NCBI GenBank assembly: GCA_026705345.1
Contig: JAPPAV010000132.1
Span: forward strand, 1 to 34,826
Direction of reading: 5' to 3'
From: Gammaproteobacteria bacterium
Lineage (GTDB): Bacteria > Pseudomonadota > Gammaproteobacteria > Pseudomonadales > Azotimanducaceae
Length of the DNA: 34,826 bases
Position numbers and translations under genes: made by a program. This document shows positions 3,056 through 34,826 of this stretch, piece after piece (position 1 is the first letter of the stretch; each line of letters starts with the position of its first letter). Under the pieces are notes generated by a model. The model saw only the letters and a program-made list of their open reading frames with translations. It did no database searches and had not been told where the DNA came from.

Positions 3056-4984
3056 CGAGACCAGGTGATCGGCCAGCAGTTCGAGGTCCGCCGAGGGGGT
3101 ATCGCGCAGCATCTCGGCAAGGATCCGAAGGTCGTCCGAGGAGGCGGTTGCGGTGAATTCGGCTAGGGCCGGGGCATCGTCGAGGGCGACCCTGGCGAGG
3201 TCTTCGGCACGCTCGAGCCATCGGCCAGGCTCGGGATCAACCGCCTCGGTGAATCCGACAGCCCCTGCCGAGGCACGGGCGTTCATATCCTGGAGCGCTT
3301 CGTCGAGGGTTTCCATTCCGCAGATCGTGTGGACCAGGCCGGTGATGCGGATCCTCTCTGCGAGCACCTCGTAGAGGGCGCCGTCGCACTCCTCGGCGAA
3401 ATACCGCGCATCGAATTCGCCCGACAGAAGCTCGACCAGATCTCGGGTGTTCTGCGCGGGCACCAGGCGATCGAACGGCGAGTGATAGAGATGGAAGCGG
3501 GTGTCGCGTGCCGTCATTGCCTTGTGCGGCTCGGCGAGGTTGGTGAACGTGCTGAGTTGCAGCAGGGTCTTCAACGCGTCGTAGCGCGGCTCGGCGTCCA
3601 GCATCCCCGCCACGAAGTCATCGGTGAGTCGGTCGCCAGCGACCACTTGGTCGATTTCCAGGCCAACGTCGCCGTAGGCGACAAGTGGCGGAAGCACCCG
3701 CTTCGTCAGGTAGGGAATCACGGCCTCAAGATGCACGTCCCGACACCAGGGACCATCCTCGCAACGGCCGTCCAGTCTCACCAACGCGCCCCGAACCGTC
3801 TGGTAGAGGCTATGCGGCGCGCCCCCGCTGTATAGCTCGCGTACCGTGAATCCCACATCCCCGACCTGGGCGGCAAGCCAGAAAGCGACAACGCTGTGCC
3901 CGCCTTGGGAATAGCCGATGGCGACAACGTCGGCGTTGGCATCGGGTGCGCTGAAAGACCGGTAGTCGTCGCTAGCAAGCACGGCGGCGACCATGTCGAG
4001 CGTATTGATGGCGACGCGATTGGCCATCAGGTAGGTTTCGGGCTGTTGCGTTCCGTCCACGGGATCGGTGGCGGAACCGCCCCGGCCGAAGTTGTCCGGA
4101 GCGATCACCAGGTAGCCGCGCCCAGCGATCAGAGTCGCAAGGACAAACCAGCCGTCGTCGTCCCTGAGCGAACTGGGCGTCGAGCCGGTGGCATGGCTCA
4201 GCACGACGACGCGCTCCCTGGGTCGGAAGTCCGGATCGGCGGCAATGTCCGGAAACGCCACGAGTCCCGTTAGCATCGCGGGTTCTCCGTCAGGGTCGCG
4301 GGAGCTGTACGCGATGCGTTGGGCGATCACGTCGTGGGACGCCCGGCGGGCGGTCAGCTCGGGCCAGGAAAGATCGGCGATCTTGCCGACCGTCACCCGC
4401 GCCAAGGCCCGCAGTATCCACGAGTCGATTTCGTCGATTACCGCCTTGTCGATGTAGCGGTCGAACAGCCGGTTGACGCCGTATACCGACGTGGTTGTCT
4501 GTTCGACGACGGACAGCGTGTCCGATCCGCCGTGGCTGGTCTCGAAGTCGAGCTCCCCACGGTAGCGCTTGTCCTCCCCGGTTGCGTTCACCGTCACGGT
4601 ATAGGCCGTCGAGTCGGCGAGCGAGCAGGGGAGTAGGTGTTCGATGAGCTCCTCTGAGTTGCCGTCGGAGAGATCGGTCAGTTCGCGCCGAAGCGCGATG
4701 CCGCTTCCGGTGCACGGACCGGCGTAGGTGAACGCCAGGCCTTTGCGGCCGCGGTGGGTCAGGCCGACGTCGGTGGTCGACGGATCGACGGTCGCGCGCC
4801 TCGCCGGGATCGTATCCAGGAGAACGATCGGTTCGGGTGGCGGCGGCGGGGGTGGCGGGGGCGGCCCGGCGGGGACGACGGGCCCACCGCCGCCGCACCC
4901 GGCGGCTACGCCAAGACAGGCAACGGCAAAAACGCGTCGGCCAGCAACGCGGTGCTCGCCGGGTCTAGGCGACGGGCAGCTCAG
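3050..4984 (-). CDS. Secreted lipase-like alpha/beta hydrolase, predicted lipoprotein
   Basis: The product is about 644 residues if translation starts at CTG 4984, which overlaps the preceding stop as CTGA. No ATG, GTG or TTG lies between that stop and the signal sequence, so the start is a guess. The N-terminus is arginine-rich, then hydrophobic, ending in a lipobox-like VAAGC, then a run of ten prolines, an Ig-like region, and a hydrolase domain. The nucleophile elbow GYSQG has its serine near residue 359; later SPFDRLVP and LVHTICG supply plausible Asp and His. This architecture resembles secretory lipases and cutinase-like esterases that act outside the cytoplasm. The stop codon TAG lies inside a dispersed palindromic repeat. 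The substrate is unknown. The same frame is open through the 5' half of the frameshifted gene upstream, which I regard as chance rather than a fusion. Confidence 0.72.
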   Translation of the reverse strand: MSCPSPRPGEHRVAGRRVFAVACLGVAAGCGGGGPVVPAGPPPPPPPPPPEPIVLLDTIPARRATVDPSTTDVGLTHRGRKGLAFTYAGPCTGSGIALRRELTDLSDGNSEELIEHLLPCSLADSTAYTVTVNATGEDKRYRGELDFETSHGGSDTLSVVEQTTTSVYGVNRLFDRYIDKAVIDEIDSWILRALARVTVGKIADLSWPELTARRASHDVIAQRIAYSSRDPDGEPAMLTGLVAFPDIAADPDFRPRERVVVLSHATGSTPSSLRDDDGWFVLATLIAGRGYLVIAPDNFGRGGSATDPVDGTQQPETYLMANRVAINTLDMVAAVLASDDYRSFSAPDANADVVAIGYSQGGHSVVAFWLAAQVGDVGFTVRELYSGGAPHSLYQTVRGALVRLDGRCEDGPWCRDVHLEAVIPYLTKRVLPPLVAYGDVGLEIDQVVAGDRLTDDFVAGMLDAEPRYDALKTLLQLSTFTNLAEPHKAMTARDTRFHLYHSPFDRLVPAQNTRDLVELLSGEFDARYFAEECDGALYEVLAERIRITGLVHTICGMETLDEALQDMNARASAGAVGFTEAVDPEPGRWLERAEDLARVALDDAPALAEFTATASSDDLRILAEMLRDTPSADLELLADHLVSP

Positions 4985-30018: not shown

Positions 30019-30678
30019 GTGGCACGTCTTATTGTCAGGAGTCTCGGTCCCGACACCGTCTACGAGGACGTGTTCCGGGCCATGCGCACGTTCACGGATG
30101 CCCGAAGCGAATCAACGGCGGACGAACTGTGGCTCACCGAACACGCGCCGGTGTTCACCCAGGGCCAAGCCGGGCGGGCCGAGTACCTGCTTGCGCCCGG
30201 TAACATACCGGTCGTGCAGAGCGACCGCGGTGGCCAGGTGACCTATCACGGGCCCGGCCAGATCGTGGGCTACCTGATGTTCGATCTGCGACGGCTGGGT
30301 TTGACCGTGCGTACCCTCGTGCGCAACATCGAGGCCAGCGTCGTCGCGTTGCTCGCCGACTACGGCATCGACGCGGCGCCTCGGACCGACGCGCCGGGTG
30401 TCTACGTGGGACGCGACAAGATCGCCGCTTTGGGGCTGCGGGTACGCCGCGGATACAGCTACCATGGATTGAGCCTCAACGTCGATATGGATCTGACGCC
30501 GTACGCCCGGATCGTTCCCTGTGGTCTGACGGGAACCGGCGTGACGACCATGGCCGTGCTGACGGGTGGCGGCGCTTGTGTGGCGGAAGTGACACCCCGG
30601 TTGGTCGACAAGCTGGTGGCACAATACGGCTTCGACGAGGTCGTCGATGTCCAAGCGCCATCGATGGCAGGCATCTGA
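30019..30678 (+). CDS. lipB: Lipoyl(octanoyl) transferase
   Basis: The 219-residue enzyme moves octanoate from acyl carrier protein to lipoyl domains of 2-oxoacid dehydrogenases and the glycine cleavage H protein. Signatures are [20 protein letters not shown], the catalytic Lys134 in [15 protein letters not shown] and the acyl-carrying Cys168 in [16 protein letters not shown] 30019 is the start. In gammaproteobacteria dacA is usually followed by ybeD, then lipB and lipA. Here ybeD and lipA are missing, and a sulfatase follows lipB after 25 bp. Confidence 0.96.
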
Positions 30679-30703
30679 CCACCACCAGCCGAATCTGCGA
30701 CCG

Positions 30704-32242
30704 ATGCGACCCAACATTGTTTTTGCCTTTGCGGATGATTGGGGCCGGTACGCCCGTGCCTACGCCCAGCATGAAGGTCCCGGTTCGCTGAACGAACTGA
30801 TCGACACCCCGAACTTCGATCGGATCGCCGCCGAGGGCGCGTTGTTCTTGAACGCCTTGGTTCCCGCGCCGTCCTGCACGCCCTGCCGCAGTTCGATCCT
30901 GGCTGGCCAGTACTTCTGGCAGACGGGTCTCGGCGCGATCCTGCAAGGTGCGGTTTGGGACGAAACGATTCCCACGTTTCCCCTCGAGTTGGAGAGAGGC
31001 GGGTATTTCATCGGCTACCAATACAAGGTCTGGAGCCCGGGAAAGACCCTCAATGCACCGATCGGTGCAGCCCGCACGCGTTACGAGCCGGCTGGCCGGA
31101 ACTTCAACCAGTTCTCCCATTGGGTCACGGCCAACGCCGCGACGCTCGGCATCGAAGGCGCCAAGCAAACGCTTTACGACGAGACCCGGGAGAACTTCCG
31201 CGCGTTCTTGGCGGCACGGGGGGACGATCGGCCGTTCTGCTACTGGTGGGGACCGACGAATACCCATCGTACCTGGGAACGCGGGTCCGGAAAGGCGTTG
31301 TGGGGGATCGATCCGGACGACCTCGAGGGCCGCTTGCCGGGTTTCCTGCCGGACGTGCACGAAATCCGCGAAGACGCCGCGGACTACCTCGGCGAGTGTC
31401 AGGCCGTCGACAAGGGTTTGGGCATCCTGCGCGACGAGCTAATCGCCGTTGGCGAATGGGACAACACTCTCCTAGTGGTTAGCGGCGATCACGGCATCCC
31501 CGGCATGCCGCGCGCCAAGTGCAACCTGTACGACATCGGCTGCGAAGTCGCCTTGGCCGTGCGCTGGCCCGGCCGGGTCCGTGCCGGCCGTGTCGTCGAC
31601 GATTTCGTGAACCTGATGGACTTGGGACCGACCTTTTGCGAGGCCGGCGGCATCGACATCCCCGACACCATGACCGGGAAGAGTCTCGTCCCGATCCTCG
31701 ACGCCCCGGCCAGCGGCCAGGTCGATGCCGGGCGCGATCACGTCGTCACGGGGCGGGAACGCCATGTCGGGTTTGCCCGGGAAGGCTACCTGCCGTATCC
31801 GCAGCGATCCCTGCGGACCAAGGACTTCATCTACATCGTGAACTTCGAGCCCGACCGCTGGCCGATGGGCGACCCCAAGGGGCTCGACGACCCCCGGGCG
31901 CCGGCACCGGACTACCAGACACTCGCCTCGAACACATTCGCGGCCTACCCGGACTTCGATGCCAGCCCGACCAAGGCGTGGATGATCCATCACCGGGAGG
32001 AACTCGACGTCGAACCGCTGTACGACTTAGCGTTCGGGAAGCGACCGAGGGAGGAACTCTACGACCTCAATGAGGATCCGCACTACATGACCAACGTGGC
32101 CGACGATCCGAAGTACGCCAATGTGCGGGGTCAAATGGAGGCGCGTCTCCTCGCGATCCTCGAGGACCAGGACGACCCGAGGTTGATGGAGCAGCCGTGT
32201 CGGTACGAACTCGAACCCTACGCGGGCCCTCCCGAACGTTGA
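30704..32242 (+). CDS. Sulfatase, formylglycine-dependent (S1 family)
   Basis: The 512-residue protein is a type I sulfatase. Metal-binding aspartates 11-12 are in NIVFAFADDWG. The nucleophile cysteine is residue 58 in CTPCR, fitting the C-x-(S/P/A)-x-R motif converted to formylglycine by a maturase not seen here. VVSGDHG supplies further metal and substrate ligands. The segment PGMPRAKCNLYDIG resembles N-sulfoglucosamine sulfohydrolase-type enzymes, which act on sulfated sugars, but the true substrate is unknown. ATG 30704 gives no signal peptide. The frame stays open to 30647, overlapping lipB, and that extension adds no signal either, so the enzyme is predicted cytoplasmic. Possible later acquisition into the lipB-lipA slot is inferred. 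Confidence 0.9.
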   Translation: MRPNIVFAFADDWGRYARAYAQHEGPGSLNELIDTPNFDRIAAEGALFLNALVPAPSCTPCRSSILAGQYFWQTGLGAILQGAVWDETIPTFPLELERGGYFIGYQYKVWSPGKTLNAPIGAARTRYEPAGRNFNQFSHWVTANAATLGIEGAKQTLYDETRENFRAFLAARGDDRPFCYWWGPTNTHRTWERGSGKALWGIDPDDLEGRLPGFLPDVHEIREDAADYLGECQAVDKGLGILRDELIAVGEWDNTLLVVSGDHGIPGMPRAKCNLYDIGCEVALAVRWPGRVRAGRVVDDFVNLMDLGPTFCEAGGIDIPDTMTGKSLVPILDAPASGQVDAGRDHVVTGRERHVGFAREGYLPYPQRSLRTKDFIYIVNFEPDRWPMGDPKGLDDPRAPAPDYQTLASNTFAAYPDFDASPTKAWMIHHREELDVEPLYDLAFGKRPREELYDLNEDPHYMTNVADDPKYANVRGQMEARLLAILEDQDDPRLMEQPCRYELEPYAGPPER

Positions 32243-32415: not shown

Positions 32416-32433
32416 GTTTAACCCGCGTTATCC
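32416..32433. repeat. 18-bp quasi-palindrome overlapping the recombinase stop
   Basis: GTTTAAC-CCGC-GTTATCC is an imperfect inverted repeat around a 4-bp centre. Bases 32428-32430 are the TAA stop of the recombinase on the minus strand. On that strand it closely matches the 18-bp palindrome upstream of the gene (33583-33600), with the centre in opposite orientation. The adjacent 50 bp on the left are AT-rich. A recombinase-binding or attachment-site role is inferred. Confidence 0.6.
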
Positions 32434-33558
32434 GGACTCTACCACCACCGTTTCGGACGCCGCAAGCGCTTTTTTCGACTTTTTCGAGGCACCGCCGCCG
32501 TCGCGGCGACCGCCGCGCAGCCGCGCCACGGCGCCCCGGGACGCCTCCTGGTTGCGTATGTAGAGCGCCGGCATGGACGGATCCTTCCAGCGTCCCTCCT
32601 TCTGCAGCTCGGCGAGCGATGCGCCCCGCTCGGCCAGCTCCTGCGCCGAGCCGATCCGCAGCGAGTGGCCGGACACCCGGCCCTCGATCCCTGCCTCCTT
32701 CGCGCGGCGCTTGATCGCGGCGCGGACCGAGTCCGGCCCGAGACGCCGTTCCGAGACGCGCCCCCACCGGTCCACCGCCCGGAACAGGGCGCCGGACCCG
32801 ATGCGGCCGGCGCCCATCCAACGCCGCAGGCGGTCGGCCGTGCGCACACGCAGGTACTGCACCGCCCCGCGGCCGCGCTGATCCGTTTTGCTGCGGCGGA
32901 TCCTGATCCGCGCCGTGCCGTCCGGCAGGAACGTCAGGTCGTCGACATTCAGTCCCGAGACCTCGAACACCCGCAGCAGGGCGTCCGACGCGACGGCGAC
33001 GATCGCGGCGTCGCGTCTGCCCGCCAGGTCGTCGTGCGCCTCGGCGCATCTGCACATCTTCTCGGCCTCCTTCCACGAGATTCCCCGTACCTGCCCCGTA
33101 CCGCGCTCCGCGCCTTCCCGGCGGAAGCGCTCCAGGCGCTCTTTCGTCACGGGGCCGACCGGGTCCGTTGAGCGCAGGCCCGTCCGCGCGCATGCCTTCG
33201 CGGCGTAGTGCACCGCCGCCACGAGGTGCGCGGCGCTGGGCGGCGAGCGGCCCCGGTCGAACAGCACGCCGAGGTAGCGGGCAAGCAGCGCGTCGGTGGC
33301 CGGCCGCCCGTCCAGCCACTCGCTCAAGGCGGCGAGTACGCCGGCGTAGACCTTGCGCGTCTTGGGCGCGAAGGCCGTCTCGGGCAGCCGCCGGATCGCG
33401 AGTTCGATATCGATCGGCGGCGGCGCCCAGCCGCCGTTCTCGATCCGGTCGGCGAGCAGCCGGACAAGACCGACAACGACGCGGCGGGGGCCCAACGCGA
33501 AGAGGAAGGCTGCGGCGTTCAAGGGTGCCGTTTCGAGATGGACGGTGGCGGATGTCAT
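32428..33558 (-). CDS. Tyrosine recombinase / phage-type integrase
   Basis: The 376-residue protein has a core-binding N-terminal domain (about 45-150) and a catalytic domain with the full constellation: Arg196 in DALLRVFEVSGL, Lys224 in RRSKTDQRG, His298 and Arg301 in SGHSLRIGSAQ, Trp324 in EGRWKDPSMPALY, and nucleophile Tyr333. The GRWKDPSMPALYIR wording is typical of plasmid- and phage-type integrases rather than XerC or XerD. A lysine- and arginine-rich tail follows. The ATG lies after GGAGACACACCC. The gene runs opposite to its neighbours, is very GC-rich, and is bracketed by related 18-bp palindromes. No tRNA or excisionase gene is adjacent. Confidence 0.92.
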   Translation of the reverse strand: MTSATVHLETAPLNAAAFLFALGPRRVVVGLVRLLADRIENGGWAPPPIDIELAIRRLPETAFAPKTRKVYAGVLAALSEWLDGRPATDALLARYLGVLFDRGRSPPSAAHLVAAVHYAAKACARTGLRSTDPVGPVTKERLERFRREGAERGTGQVRGISWKEAEKMCRCAEAHDDLAGRRDAAIVAVASDALLRVFEVSGLNVDDLTFLPDGTARIRIRRSKTDQRGRGAVQYLRVRTADRLRRWMGAGRIGSGALFRAVDRWGRVSERRLGPDSVRAAIKRRAKEAGIEGRVSGHSLRIGSAQELAERGASLAELQKEGRWKDPSMPALYIRNQEASRGAVARLRGGRRDGGGASKKSKKALAASETVVVESG

Positions 33559-33582
33559 GGGTGTGTCTCCTTGTCTTGGTTG

Positions 33583-33600
33583 GGTTAACGCGGGTTAACC
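33583..33600. repeat. 18-bp palindrome upstream of the recombinase
   Basis: GGTTAACGCGGGTTAACC has perfect 7-bp arms, GGTTAAC and GTTAACC, around a GCGG centre, 24 bp upstream of the recombinase start codon. This is the size and form of a tyrosine-recombinase core site or an autoregulatory operator. The related copy at 32416-32433 overlaps the stop of the same gene. Confidence 0.65.
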
Positions 33601-33685
33601 ACGGCGGCTGGACTCCACGAACCGATGTGCTCGTGGTGCGAACACCGGCCCGTCGAGCTACCGACAGACAATATACGGAGGAAAC

Positions 33686-34039
33686 ATGAACCAGCTGCTC
33701 AAATCGCAGCGTCGTCTCACGGCGGCTTTCAGACTGAACCCTGTGATAGTTTCGCTACTACTGGGTGCCGCATTGATATTGGGTCCCGCGTGGCCGGGCC
33801 AAGGAAACGCGGGCGCGGGCTCCAGTCAAATATATCCACCCTACGGCCCCATCGAGTGTTTTGAGGTCTGCGAAAGGGAATGCCAAGCAGTCCATCAATC
33901 TTGCATCGATGTACACGAACGTCGTGGCGCGGGTCCCGTGCGTGTATTCGTGTCATGCACGATACCGTACAATCGGTGCAAGAACGGATGTGAGGAGAGA
34001 TGCAACCAACTCCCATGGCCCGTGTATCCCGGGTATTGA
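33686..34039 (+). CDS. Secreted protein with mirror-symmetric eight-cysteine pattern
   Basis: The 117-residue protein has a basic N-terminus, a hydrophobic segment at about 19-35 and a likely signal-peptidase site near GNAGAG, leaving a mature part of about 75 residues. Its eight cysteines are at 58, 62, 66, 73, 91, 98, 102 and 106, giving spacings 4-4-7-18-7-4-4, an exact mirror. Each half is likely a helix (CFEVCEREC and CKNGCEERC), so an antiparallel hairpin held by disulfides is plausible. The ATG follows TACGGAGGAAAC, an excellent ribosome binding site. The end overlaps the next gene by 40 nt. I recognise no family; resemblance to CX3C or CHCH hairpins is only structural analogy. Confidence 0.8.
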   Translation: MNQLLKSQRRLTAAFRLNPVIVSLLLGAALILGPAWPGQGNAGAGSSQIYPPYGPIECFEVCERECQAVHQSCIDVHERRGAGPVRVFVSCTIPYNRCKNGCEERCNQLPWPVYPGY

Positions 34040-34404
34040 ATGACTTGCCTTGGTCGAACATCGCCGTAGCCGGCATGGGGTTCGTTGTGGGATACCAGCT
34101 GTTGGAAGCGGCATGGTGGGTTCTAGGTAAGATCGGCTGGGATGTTGTAGCCGCGAGTGCTGCAGGGGGCGTGATTGTCTCCGCGTTGGCGTTGAAGTGG
34201 CGGGCAAAGATCGGTATCGCTGCAATAGGCCTAGGTTTCTTTATCCTAATGCTCAATCTTGCAGCCTGTGTTGTTCTGACATTTGGTTGGGCTACTAGTG
34301 TCGGAACAGGTTGGCAAGTCGCTATTGTGGTGCTTGCGCTTCTGTTTGCGGTCGTGATCGCTTTGCTGTCTTCGAACAGGCGTAGGACTTTCGGACAGGG
34401 GTAG
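34000..34404 (+). CDS. Four-helix membrane protein coupled to the cysteine-rich protein
   Basis: The 134-residue protein has four predicted membrane helices at about 20-42, 48-65, 71-95 and 105-125, and ends in a basic segment (SSNRRRTFGQG). ATG 34000 lies inside the preceding gene, 5 nt after GAGGAGAG, and ATG 34015 is an alternative. The 40-nt overlap implies tight translational coupling and a joint function, for example anchor, exporter or protector of the secreted partner; this is inferred. Local GC content looks lower than in the rest of the window. The stop is followed at once by short GTAGGACT-containing repeats. No family is recognised. Confidence 0.72.
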   Translation: MQPTPMARVSRVLNDLPWSNIAVAGMGFVVGYQLLEAAWWVLGKIGWDVVAASAAGGVIVSALALKWRAKIGIAAIGLGFFILMLNLAACVVLTFGWATSVGTGWQVAIVVLALLFAVVIALLSSNRRRTFGQG

Positions 34405-34826
34405 GACTCTACCGAGGACTCCCGGACGGGGACTCCCGGGACGGGGACTCCCGGAGGACGGGGACTCCCGGACACACGCGATTTCGATCCTACGGAGGAC
34501 GGGGACTCCCGGACACACGCGATTTCGATCCTACACGGCGTAGACATTTGGCCCAAGGCAACATTGAGTTGCCCTCCGGCTAGGCCTGTCGGTTCCAGCC
34601 GTGACGCATGGCGTCAACAGACTGCCTGAGCGAGGGCGCTCCGGTCGAGGGCATACGAGCGTATACGCGTCGACCCATCGCCGGTTGAGTCGATCAATCC
34701 CGCCGCTGTCGCTTGCTGACACGGTCAAGCTCGCGGCGGCTGGCGGCATTGCCCGGATGGGCTCGGAGTCCCGGAGTCCCGGACACACGCGACTCCGTTC
34801 CCACGCCCCGTAGGAAATCTGCGCAA
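34405..34826. other. Gene-free right end with repeats
   Basis: The last 422 bp hold no convincing gene. The left part is the tandem-repeat block. At about 34762-34797 a diverged copy with GAGTCCCGG twice and then GGACACACGCGACTCC appears. Between them, 34540-34760 contains no repeat or RNA that I can support. Short frames on the minus strand here are shadows. Confidence 0.6.
34413..34534. repeat. Tandem repeats with 41-bp units
   Basis: A perfect 41-bp unit occurs twice in tandem, at 34453-34493 and 34494-34534. It begins GGAGGACGGGGACTCCCGG, continues ACACACGCGATTTCGATCC and ends TAC. Before it, the short core GGGACTCCCGG or GGACTCCCGG is repeated three more times at about 34416-34454. GGGACTCCC is close to palindromic. 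Confidence 0.9.

Follow-up and report, generated by a model that had tools for sequence, protein, structure and literature searches.

A mirror-symmetric eight-cysteine protein encoded beside a tyrosine-recombinase unit and its possible role as an exported effector

What might be the role of a short orphan gene whose product joins a signal-like N-terminus to eight cysteines in exact mirror symmetry? Such a gene is located at 33686..34039 (forward strand) of the window, i.e., the whole stretch of 34,826 nucleotides that was analysed, from an organism that looks gammaproteobacterial by its gene content; it encodes 117 amino acids, followed by a stop codon, and its product is referred to as P0001. 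The recombinase unit on one side of it, the membrane-protein gene that overlaps it on the other, and the different neighbours found at the same site in related genomes, all of which escaped the sequence-only reading of this DNA, are the best clue to its function.

The eight-cysteine protein and its predicted fold

The exact mirror claimed in the sequence-only reading was confirmed by translation: the cysteines of P0001 occupy positions 58, 62, 66, 73, 91, 98, 102 and 106, with gaps of 3, 3, 6, 17, 6, 3 and 3 residues, and in each of the four mirrored pairs the two positions add up to 164. When eight cysteines were randomly placed in the 73-residue mature part of the protein, an exact mirror was obtained in 270 out of 2,000,000 trials, a figure that concerns cysteine placement only and that is post hoc, because the case had been chosen in that reading. 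The 164 register also holds V69-Y95 and V76-F88, and in each half of the protein the four cysteines, when plotted on an ideal helix, come to lie on the same side (resultant 0.87, reached by 2.4% of the random choices of four positions out of 26). The register of cysteines and V/Y/F residues would fit, as expected, an antiparallel hairpin with cysteines in several layers of its core.

The mature protein (73 residues) was modelled with AlphaFold2 as a single sequence, which yielded a mean pLDDT of 82.8 (range over five models 66 to 83) and a pTM of 0.63. In the model, helix 1 embeds residues 55-80 (33848..33925, forward strand) with Cys 58, 62, 66 and 73, and helix 2 embeds residues 84-107 (33935..34006, forward strand) with Cys 91, 98, 102 and 106; the pLDDT is about 89-94 across most of both helices, and the turn (residues 81-83) coincides with the mirror centre at residue 82. 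The two-helix hairpin previously suggested for this protein is borne out by the model. P0001 probably consists of two helices that would be stapled by four mirror-placed disulfides, and by prediction only it has the two antiparallel helices that define the class of disulfide-linked helical hairpins. Foldseek and VIA-align searches with the model disclosed no relative beyond the usual matches of a helical pair.

As for the gene, a putative ribosome-binding site (GGAGG) is located four bases 5' of the ATG. The N-terminus is signal-like and passes a home-made signal rule (see below), so that export by a signal peptide, as had been proposed, is probable; the probable signal peptide comprises residues 1-44 (33686..33817, forward strand), with the cleavage after AGA-44 estimated by eye. 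The protein is nearly neutral (7 K/R, 8 D/E) and its C-terminus is not hydrophobic. The codon score of the ORF is negative in frame (-18.6) and better in one other frame (-10.8), the recombinase gene and rlpA, two window genes outside the reference set, scoring positive. The GC content is 0.56 versus 0.64 for the whole window. The low GC and the negative score make the gene look acquired, and codon bias gives no support for coding.

P0001 matched no Pfam or NCBIfam family at curated thresholds and had no match in PHROGs or PADLOC, in agreement with the earlier remark that no bacterial family is known to show this exact pattern. No homologue was found in its own genome. A search of 58 related genomes returned no convincing homologue (best non-self E 0.007; 3 of the 35 listed non-self matches, L002, L016 and L019, were inspected), and the same was true for the cysteine part in 390 genomes of the order (best non-self E 0.001), where 19 of the 23 non-self matches came with a locus and 18 of these were inspected, L164 being left out. 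Among the latter, L157 is similar in one frame, but this is out of frame with a longer open frame; L155 and L161 are devoid of the cysteine set, and the other inspected matches were judged by eye to be due to chance. Peptide-pattern scans of genome_contigs and viral_contigs, sensitive to close relatives only, revealed no homologue, and neither did tblastn against phages and plasmids (one plasmid match at E 5). No significant match was retrieved from PDB; the weak ones were a spider toxin (E 0.69) and neurotoxin B-IV (phmmer E 1.6), to whose family P0001 does not belong by sequence homology.

The recombinase unit, the overlapping gene and the chromosomal site

Divergently to the P0001 gene, a tyrosine recombinase (YR) of 376 amino acids is encoded at 32428..33558 on the reverse strand (PF00589, E 9e-16; phrog_1 integrase, E 4e-19); it is not of the IntI type, since it scores 14.1 bits with TIGR02249 versus a curated cut-off of 265. 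Sequence comparison placed an inverted near-palindrome on its left side (32418..32433, forward strand) and another one, GGTTAACGCGGGTTAACC, on its right side (33583..33600, forward strand); here, or within 7 bp, the two closest copies stop matching the window in DNA. On the left side, the identity stops at the palindrome in one of these copies (G002 C502) and runs on into the shared left flank in the other one (G003 C195). The YR unit, containing a single gene, extends from 32418 to 33598 (1.18 kb), and the P0001 gene begins 88 nt past its end, 128 nt upstream of the YR start and within the 1 kb adopted below. Such near-palindromes flank the YR gene of the window on either side; among other copies, a regular expression recognised both of them in 12/14 of the first copies, in none of the ten copies L258-L267, and in four of the 11 copies L268-L278.

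The leader between the right palindrome and the P0001 gene spans 33601..33685 (forward strand). A leader motif, CTCGGCCAGCGAGCCG, allowing up to two mismatches, was found in 4/16 sources (L215, L216, L243 and L250), always upstream of the cargo, the window being without it. By eye, a similar leader around GCGAATTGAACCACAGCCCGG lies between the palindrome and the cargo in L242, L243, L250, L261 and L216, and the window leader has only CCACGGC, at its own start.

The P0001 gene overlaps by 40 nt a gene located at 34000..34404 (forward strand), preceded by GAGGAG two bases ahead of its ATG and encoding a hydrophobic protein of 134 amino acids, a candidate immunity partner. Three hydrophobic segments are present at threshold, and the model contains four helices at low confidence (mean pLDDT 64.8). 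A search of 100 family genomes for this protein gave no homologue, the best non-self match having E 0.006. Downstream, short repeats around GGGGACTCCCGGACACACGCGA are located at 34413-34533 and 34763-34803; similar GGGGACTCCCGGACACACGCGA-type repeats occur in relatives (L215, L216) near an ORF resembling IS200-like (RAYT-type) transposases, whose Y1_Tnp match has an E-value of only 0.027, below threshold.

The left flank of the unit is marked by a gene labelled by eye as sulfatase-like (30647..32242, forward strand), which was used as a marker in the genome comparison. In 5/16 genomes of the genus (G001, G004, G006, G009 and G011), the sulfatase-like gene lies 85-493 bp from rplQ without any insert; the matches of the two genes are not neighbours in seven other genomes (G005, G007, G008, G012-G015), and in G010 neither gene has a match. 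Past the sulfatase-like gene, three unrelated gene pairs are found in three genomes: P0001 and the membrane protein in the window (G000), an exported-looking protein of 152-157 amino acids with small membrane proteins in G003, and an HExxH protein of 321-332 amino acids with an anchored protein in G002. It can be stated that close relatives carry different cargos past one and the same left flank. The YR unit is present at this site in G000 and G003, whereas G002 harbors a single palindrome and, at the contig end, a 119-bp YR fragment; only in G003 does the contig run on past the insert to rplQ, which in G000 and G002 is located on other contigs (assembly gaps). The YR units of the window, G003 C195 and G002 C502 are 91% identical in DNA and are flanked by unrelated cargos. 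It can be added that the lone palindrome of G002 (L216), without a YR unit, has the look of an excised or never-filled site, and that the unit is multi-copy in some genomes of the genus, with up to seven matches in G003.

A protein search retrieved 28 YR copies from 10/58 related genomes. In 14 copies of the unit, viewed before this search, an exported-looking protein is located past the right palindrome nearly every time. The home-made rule calls for an ATG or GTG start with a ribosome-binding site, a length of at least 60 amino acids and a signal-like N-terminus, within 1 kb; it was finalised after nearly all of its test loci (these 14 copies, then ten more) had been viewed. Leaving aside three copies without a flank to test (L245, L255 and L266), a signal-like ORF lies divergently upstream of the YR gene in 23/25 testable copies versus 3/26 on the other side (Fisher p 3.6e-9), the rule being positive in 301 out of 2000 random 1-kb stretches. 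Without L259, which matches the rule and looks like an unrelated efflux-type protein, the count is 22/25 (p 2.8e-8). The two misses are L215, where an exported protein is visible by eye, and L254, owing to an upstream start. The later ten copies, under the final rule, gave 9/9 testable versus 2/9 on the left side (p 0.002); since the earlier rule found nothing at L263 and L259 is doubtful, seven of these nine are convincing.

The search was extended to the family, where the YR occurs in 17/206 genomes, belonging to 4/37 genera. The 11 copies from outside the genus (L268-L278) form the one set that was independent of the rule, and two of them, L269 and L270, are identical where read. Five of the ten testable ones were positive, versus 1/11 on the left side (p 0.06), and the sole left-side match (L275) is itself cargo-like. 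The positives are unevenly distributed: all five testable copies of genus g7 (two of them identical, and with a match in L271 that looks like a membrane protein) have a signal-like ORF upstream, versus none of the five copies of g8 and g55. A link between YR and export is thus seen with the nearer recombinases, and it is missing from the distant ones.

The cargo repertoire and the recurrence of mirrored ladders

A variety of proteins is found at these loci. Six cargo proteins (L216, L242, L244, L249, L250 and L253) have an HExxH motif, L249 being just under the SprT-like threshold (23.5 vs 25.6 bits), and the partners of four of them (L216, L244, L249 and L253) are mutually homologous (E 3e-9 to 3e-30). 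The L216 and L253 cargos are homologous over most of their length, and other cargos have modules in common joined to different remainders (L240/L265, L248/L249, L252/L260, L260/L263 and L247/L261). Several small ones (L215, L252 and L264) show by eye a glycine-rich hydrophobic C-terminus. No toxin domain was found above a curated threshold. The ORF that follows the cargo, chosen automatically at 25 loci, has a hydrophobic segment in 16 cases (at least four doubtful) and lacks one in seven, no ORF being found in two. The mean GC is 0.60 for the cargos (23 loci), 0.73 for the recombinases and 0.65 for the left flanks, and the cargo is lower than its left flank in 22/23 loci, L246 being without a value and the left flank of L215 consisting of 96 bases.

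When compared by BLASTP with the 24 other cargos, P0001 matches none of them at E 1e-3, so that its membership rests on position and architecture instead of sequence; what it has in common with them is the position, the size class, the predicted export, the low GC and the membrane partner. Two side observations concern the other cargos. An unusual N-terminal region of the LILPAxPxxPIPTVGGxAxA type, seen by eye after a hydrophobic stretch in small exported-looking cargos of L240, L244 (weaker), L264, L265, L267 and L275, might represent a common leader. A cargo of genus g7 (L254:2751-3659, reverse strand) has a weak PPPDE/papain-like match (PF05903, E 0.07) near an NCQH motif.

A second mirrored ladder is embedded in another cargo of genus g7, the 133-residue protein of L272. 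Its cysteines lie at 33, 37, 44, 77, 86, 119, 126 and 130, with gaps of 3, 6, 32, 8, 32, 6 and 3 residues and mirrored sums of 163, a Pro/Gly-rich turn is located at the mirror centre, and its outer ends, C-X3-C-X6-C and C-X6-C-X3-C, repeat the spacing of the three inner pairs in P0001. When the two proteins are aligned by BLASTP, the best match covers 14 residues of the C-terminal cysteine motif (E 0.001, against a single sequence and uncorrected for composition). No convincing homologue of L272 was found in 206 family genomes (best non-self E 9e-4); this best match, L280, the only non-self one inspected, was judged to be due to chance. Two matches in the viral contigs were likewise judged chance, and PDB and Pfam gave none that is convincing.

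In order to estimate how often such mirrors occur, ORFs of 60-400 amino acids with at least six cysteines were taken from the retrieved loci, leaving out the pattern-scan loci L022-L138 and L201-L214, and were submitted to 1175 tests, the same ORF being testable up to three times. Three perfect mirrors were found: P0001, L272 and a 60-amino-acid ORF of L218, which lies in a ribosomal-gene region and was taken as chance. Among the 157 eight-cysteine segments counted, 0.02 perfect mirrors would be expected at the random-placement rate. Only L272 counts as a new mirror, because P0001 started the inquiry.

The exact spacing of P0001 was met in at least 117 stretches of genome_contigs. Among the listed matches (L022-L138), an open match with at most 12 cysteines occurs only in L088 and L133, the remaining ones having more cysteines (mostly poly-Cys frames) or a stop; L133 was judged a chance frame. 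The viral scan, with poly-Cys partly excluded, returned 14 stretches, all of them Cys-repeat frames. The L088 match (3653-3799, reverse strand) belongs to a PilY1-type protein of Desulfomonile tiedjei (PF05567, E 4e-16), which by eye holds the P0001 spacing inside a longer ladder of six mirrored cysteine pairs. On the basis of L272 and L088, the mirrored ladder is a recurring solution, found in YR loci at least twice.

A possible effector and its alternatives

The reading that we prefer, at about even confidence, is that P0001 is an exported, disulfide-laddered hairpin effector that, along with a membrane immunity protein, would constitute one polymorphic cargo linked to the YR unit. P0001 would leave the cytoplasm via its signal peptide and fold in the oxidising envelope as an antiparallel helical hairpin, in which four cross-helix disulfides (58-106, 62-102, 66-98 and 73-91) would form. 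Once released from the cell, it might act, most likely as an antibacterial toxin, on the membrane of competing relatives or close to it, the product of the 34000-34404 gene being the putative cognate membrane immunity protein. The pair would be one of many alternative cargos lying by a palindrome-bounded YR unit in this genus and a neighbouring one, and its exchange may be driven by the recombinase. The HExxH motifs, the shared modules, the partner genes and the low GC make the cargos resemble polymorphic toxin-immunity systems and SitA/SitI. Several observations count against this reading: P0001 is linked to the other cargos by no sequence match, its partner had no homologue in the family genomes searched, a clear hydrophobic partner is present at part of the loci only, the independent set of YR copies gave p 0.06, no toxin domain reached threshold, and P0001 is nearly neutral with a C-terminus that is not hydrophobic.

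This effector reading has to be weighed against others, the strongest of which, though in our opinion unlikely, would make P0001 an enzyme inhibitor, or a surface peptide with a structural or adhesive role, stapled by disulfides and residing by chance in a hypervariable spot beside an unrelated membrane gene. Disulfide hairpins may also be plain structural modules, an example being the mirror ladder in the PilY1-type protein, and the lack of a sequence link between P0001 and the other cargos is consistent with this; however, P0001 is placed relative to the YR unit like 22 other signal-like ORFs, and the two genes overlap by 40 nt. A target in a eukaryotic host or predator, instead of in bacteria, is improbable. 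It might be suggested by the weak, non-significant PDB matches, i.e., a spider toxin and a worm neurotoxin built as a disulfide-linked helical hairpin, and by the TSP3-like (below threshold) and HExxH cargos present in the family, but the cargo varies between close relatives, and the adjacent membrane-protein gene would fit self-protection, which a host toxin would presumably not need.

A slightly poorer chance is given to the possibility that the cysteines remain free thiols and coordinate a metal, Cu(I) or a different one, in the manner of Csp1, a helical, cysteine-lined copper storage protein. A metal site could be lined by cysteines spaced i, i+4 and i+8 along the same side of a helix, and two hairpins could associate into a four-helix bundle; against this stand the likely export to an oxidising place, the exact mirror about the turn and the even number of cysteines. 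Least probable of all is that the ORF is not a gene and that foreign DNA merely happens to read as this pattern. Even though the codon usage is no better than that of other frames and no homologue is available to reveal selection, the ribosome-binding site, the signal-like start and the ordered single-sequence model argue for a real gene, as do a mirror expected at a rate of about 1e-4 and the recurrence of the pattern at the equivalent locus L272.

If the effector reading is right, this orphan pair is one visible member of a YR-linked effector store whose members can be found by position without sequence likeness, and a direct route would be opened to the antibacterial proteins, and the proteins that neutralise them, that are hidden among orphan genes. 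A further, testable question would be by what means a tyrosine recombinase, together with a palindrome, might swap pairs of unrelated genes at a single site. A bolder extension, which is tentative and on the doubtful side, would regard the palindrome-bounded YR as an integron-like exchanger of whole pairs, each composed of an exported toxin and an immunity protein of the membrane or periplasm, at a fixed adjoining site and with a private set per strain; one branch of the toxins would represent a new fold class of mirror-symmetric cysteine-ladder hairpins, known in two unrelated sequences. In integrons, the recombinase gene is divergent from a variable cargo, with a recombination site between them. 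The YR locus is similar in its divergent recombinase and in the recombination-like site before the cargo, and it differs in that the YR is not IntI, a single pair rather than an array is present, and no obvious attC was recognised.

According to the parts of Zhang et al. 2012 (PMC3482391) considered here, the classes of polymorphic toxin-immunity systems include HExxH (zincin-type) metallopeptidases and two-helix pore-forming toxins. Those systems are like the present cargos in the variable toxin part, the adjacent immunity gene and the recombining modules; at the YR loci, on the other hand, the exported proteins are of small size with a presumed activity, and it is the entire gene pair by the YR unit that varies. 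A conserved N-terminal or trafficking part joined to a variable toxin part is seen among the other cargos and not in P0001. The SitA/SitI proteins of myxobacteria, as described in portions of their report (PMC5562445), also comprise exported, polymorphic toxins, each with its cognate gene next to it, and some are carried by the variable repeat element Mx-alpha, but SitA are lipoproteins with nuclease-type domains, and the word integrase does not appear in the main text of that report as far as it was available. In Vibrio parahaemolyticus, mobile T6SS effector modules adjoin integrases, recombinases or transposases and vary between strains; in the excerpts of that work (PMC9765294) these modules carry T6SS components, whereas the YR-cargo proteins have signal-like N-termini. 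Among the best matches in the open-licence literature, judged by titles and the starts of abstracts, there was no paper on a comparable set of exported effectors linked to a YR.

As regards the fold, neurotoxin B-IV of Cerebratulus is presented in part of its source (PMC6410017) as a disulfide-linked helical hairpin with four disulfides, and P0001 is, by model, a helical hairpin too, which represents an analogy and not kinship. The plant alpha-hairpinins (PMC11591084) are disulfide-linked helical hairpins, as is proposed for P0001, but they have four cysteines and come from other organisms. The mirror ladder would offer a compact scaffold, probably a very stable one.
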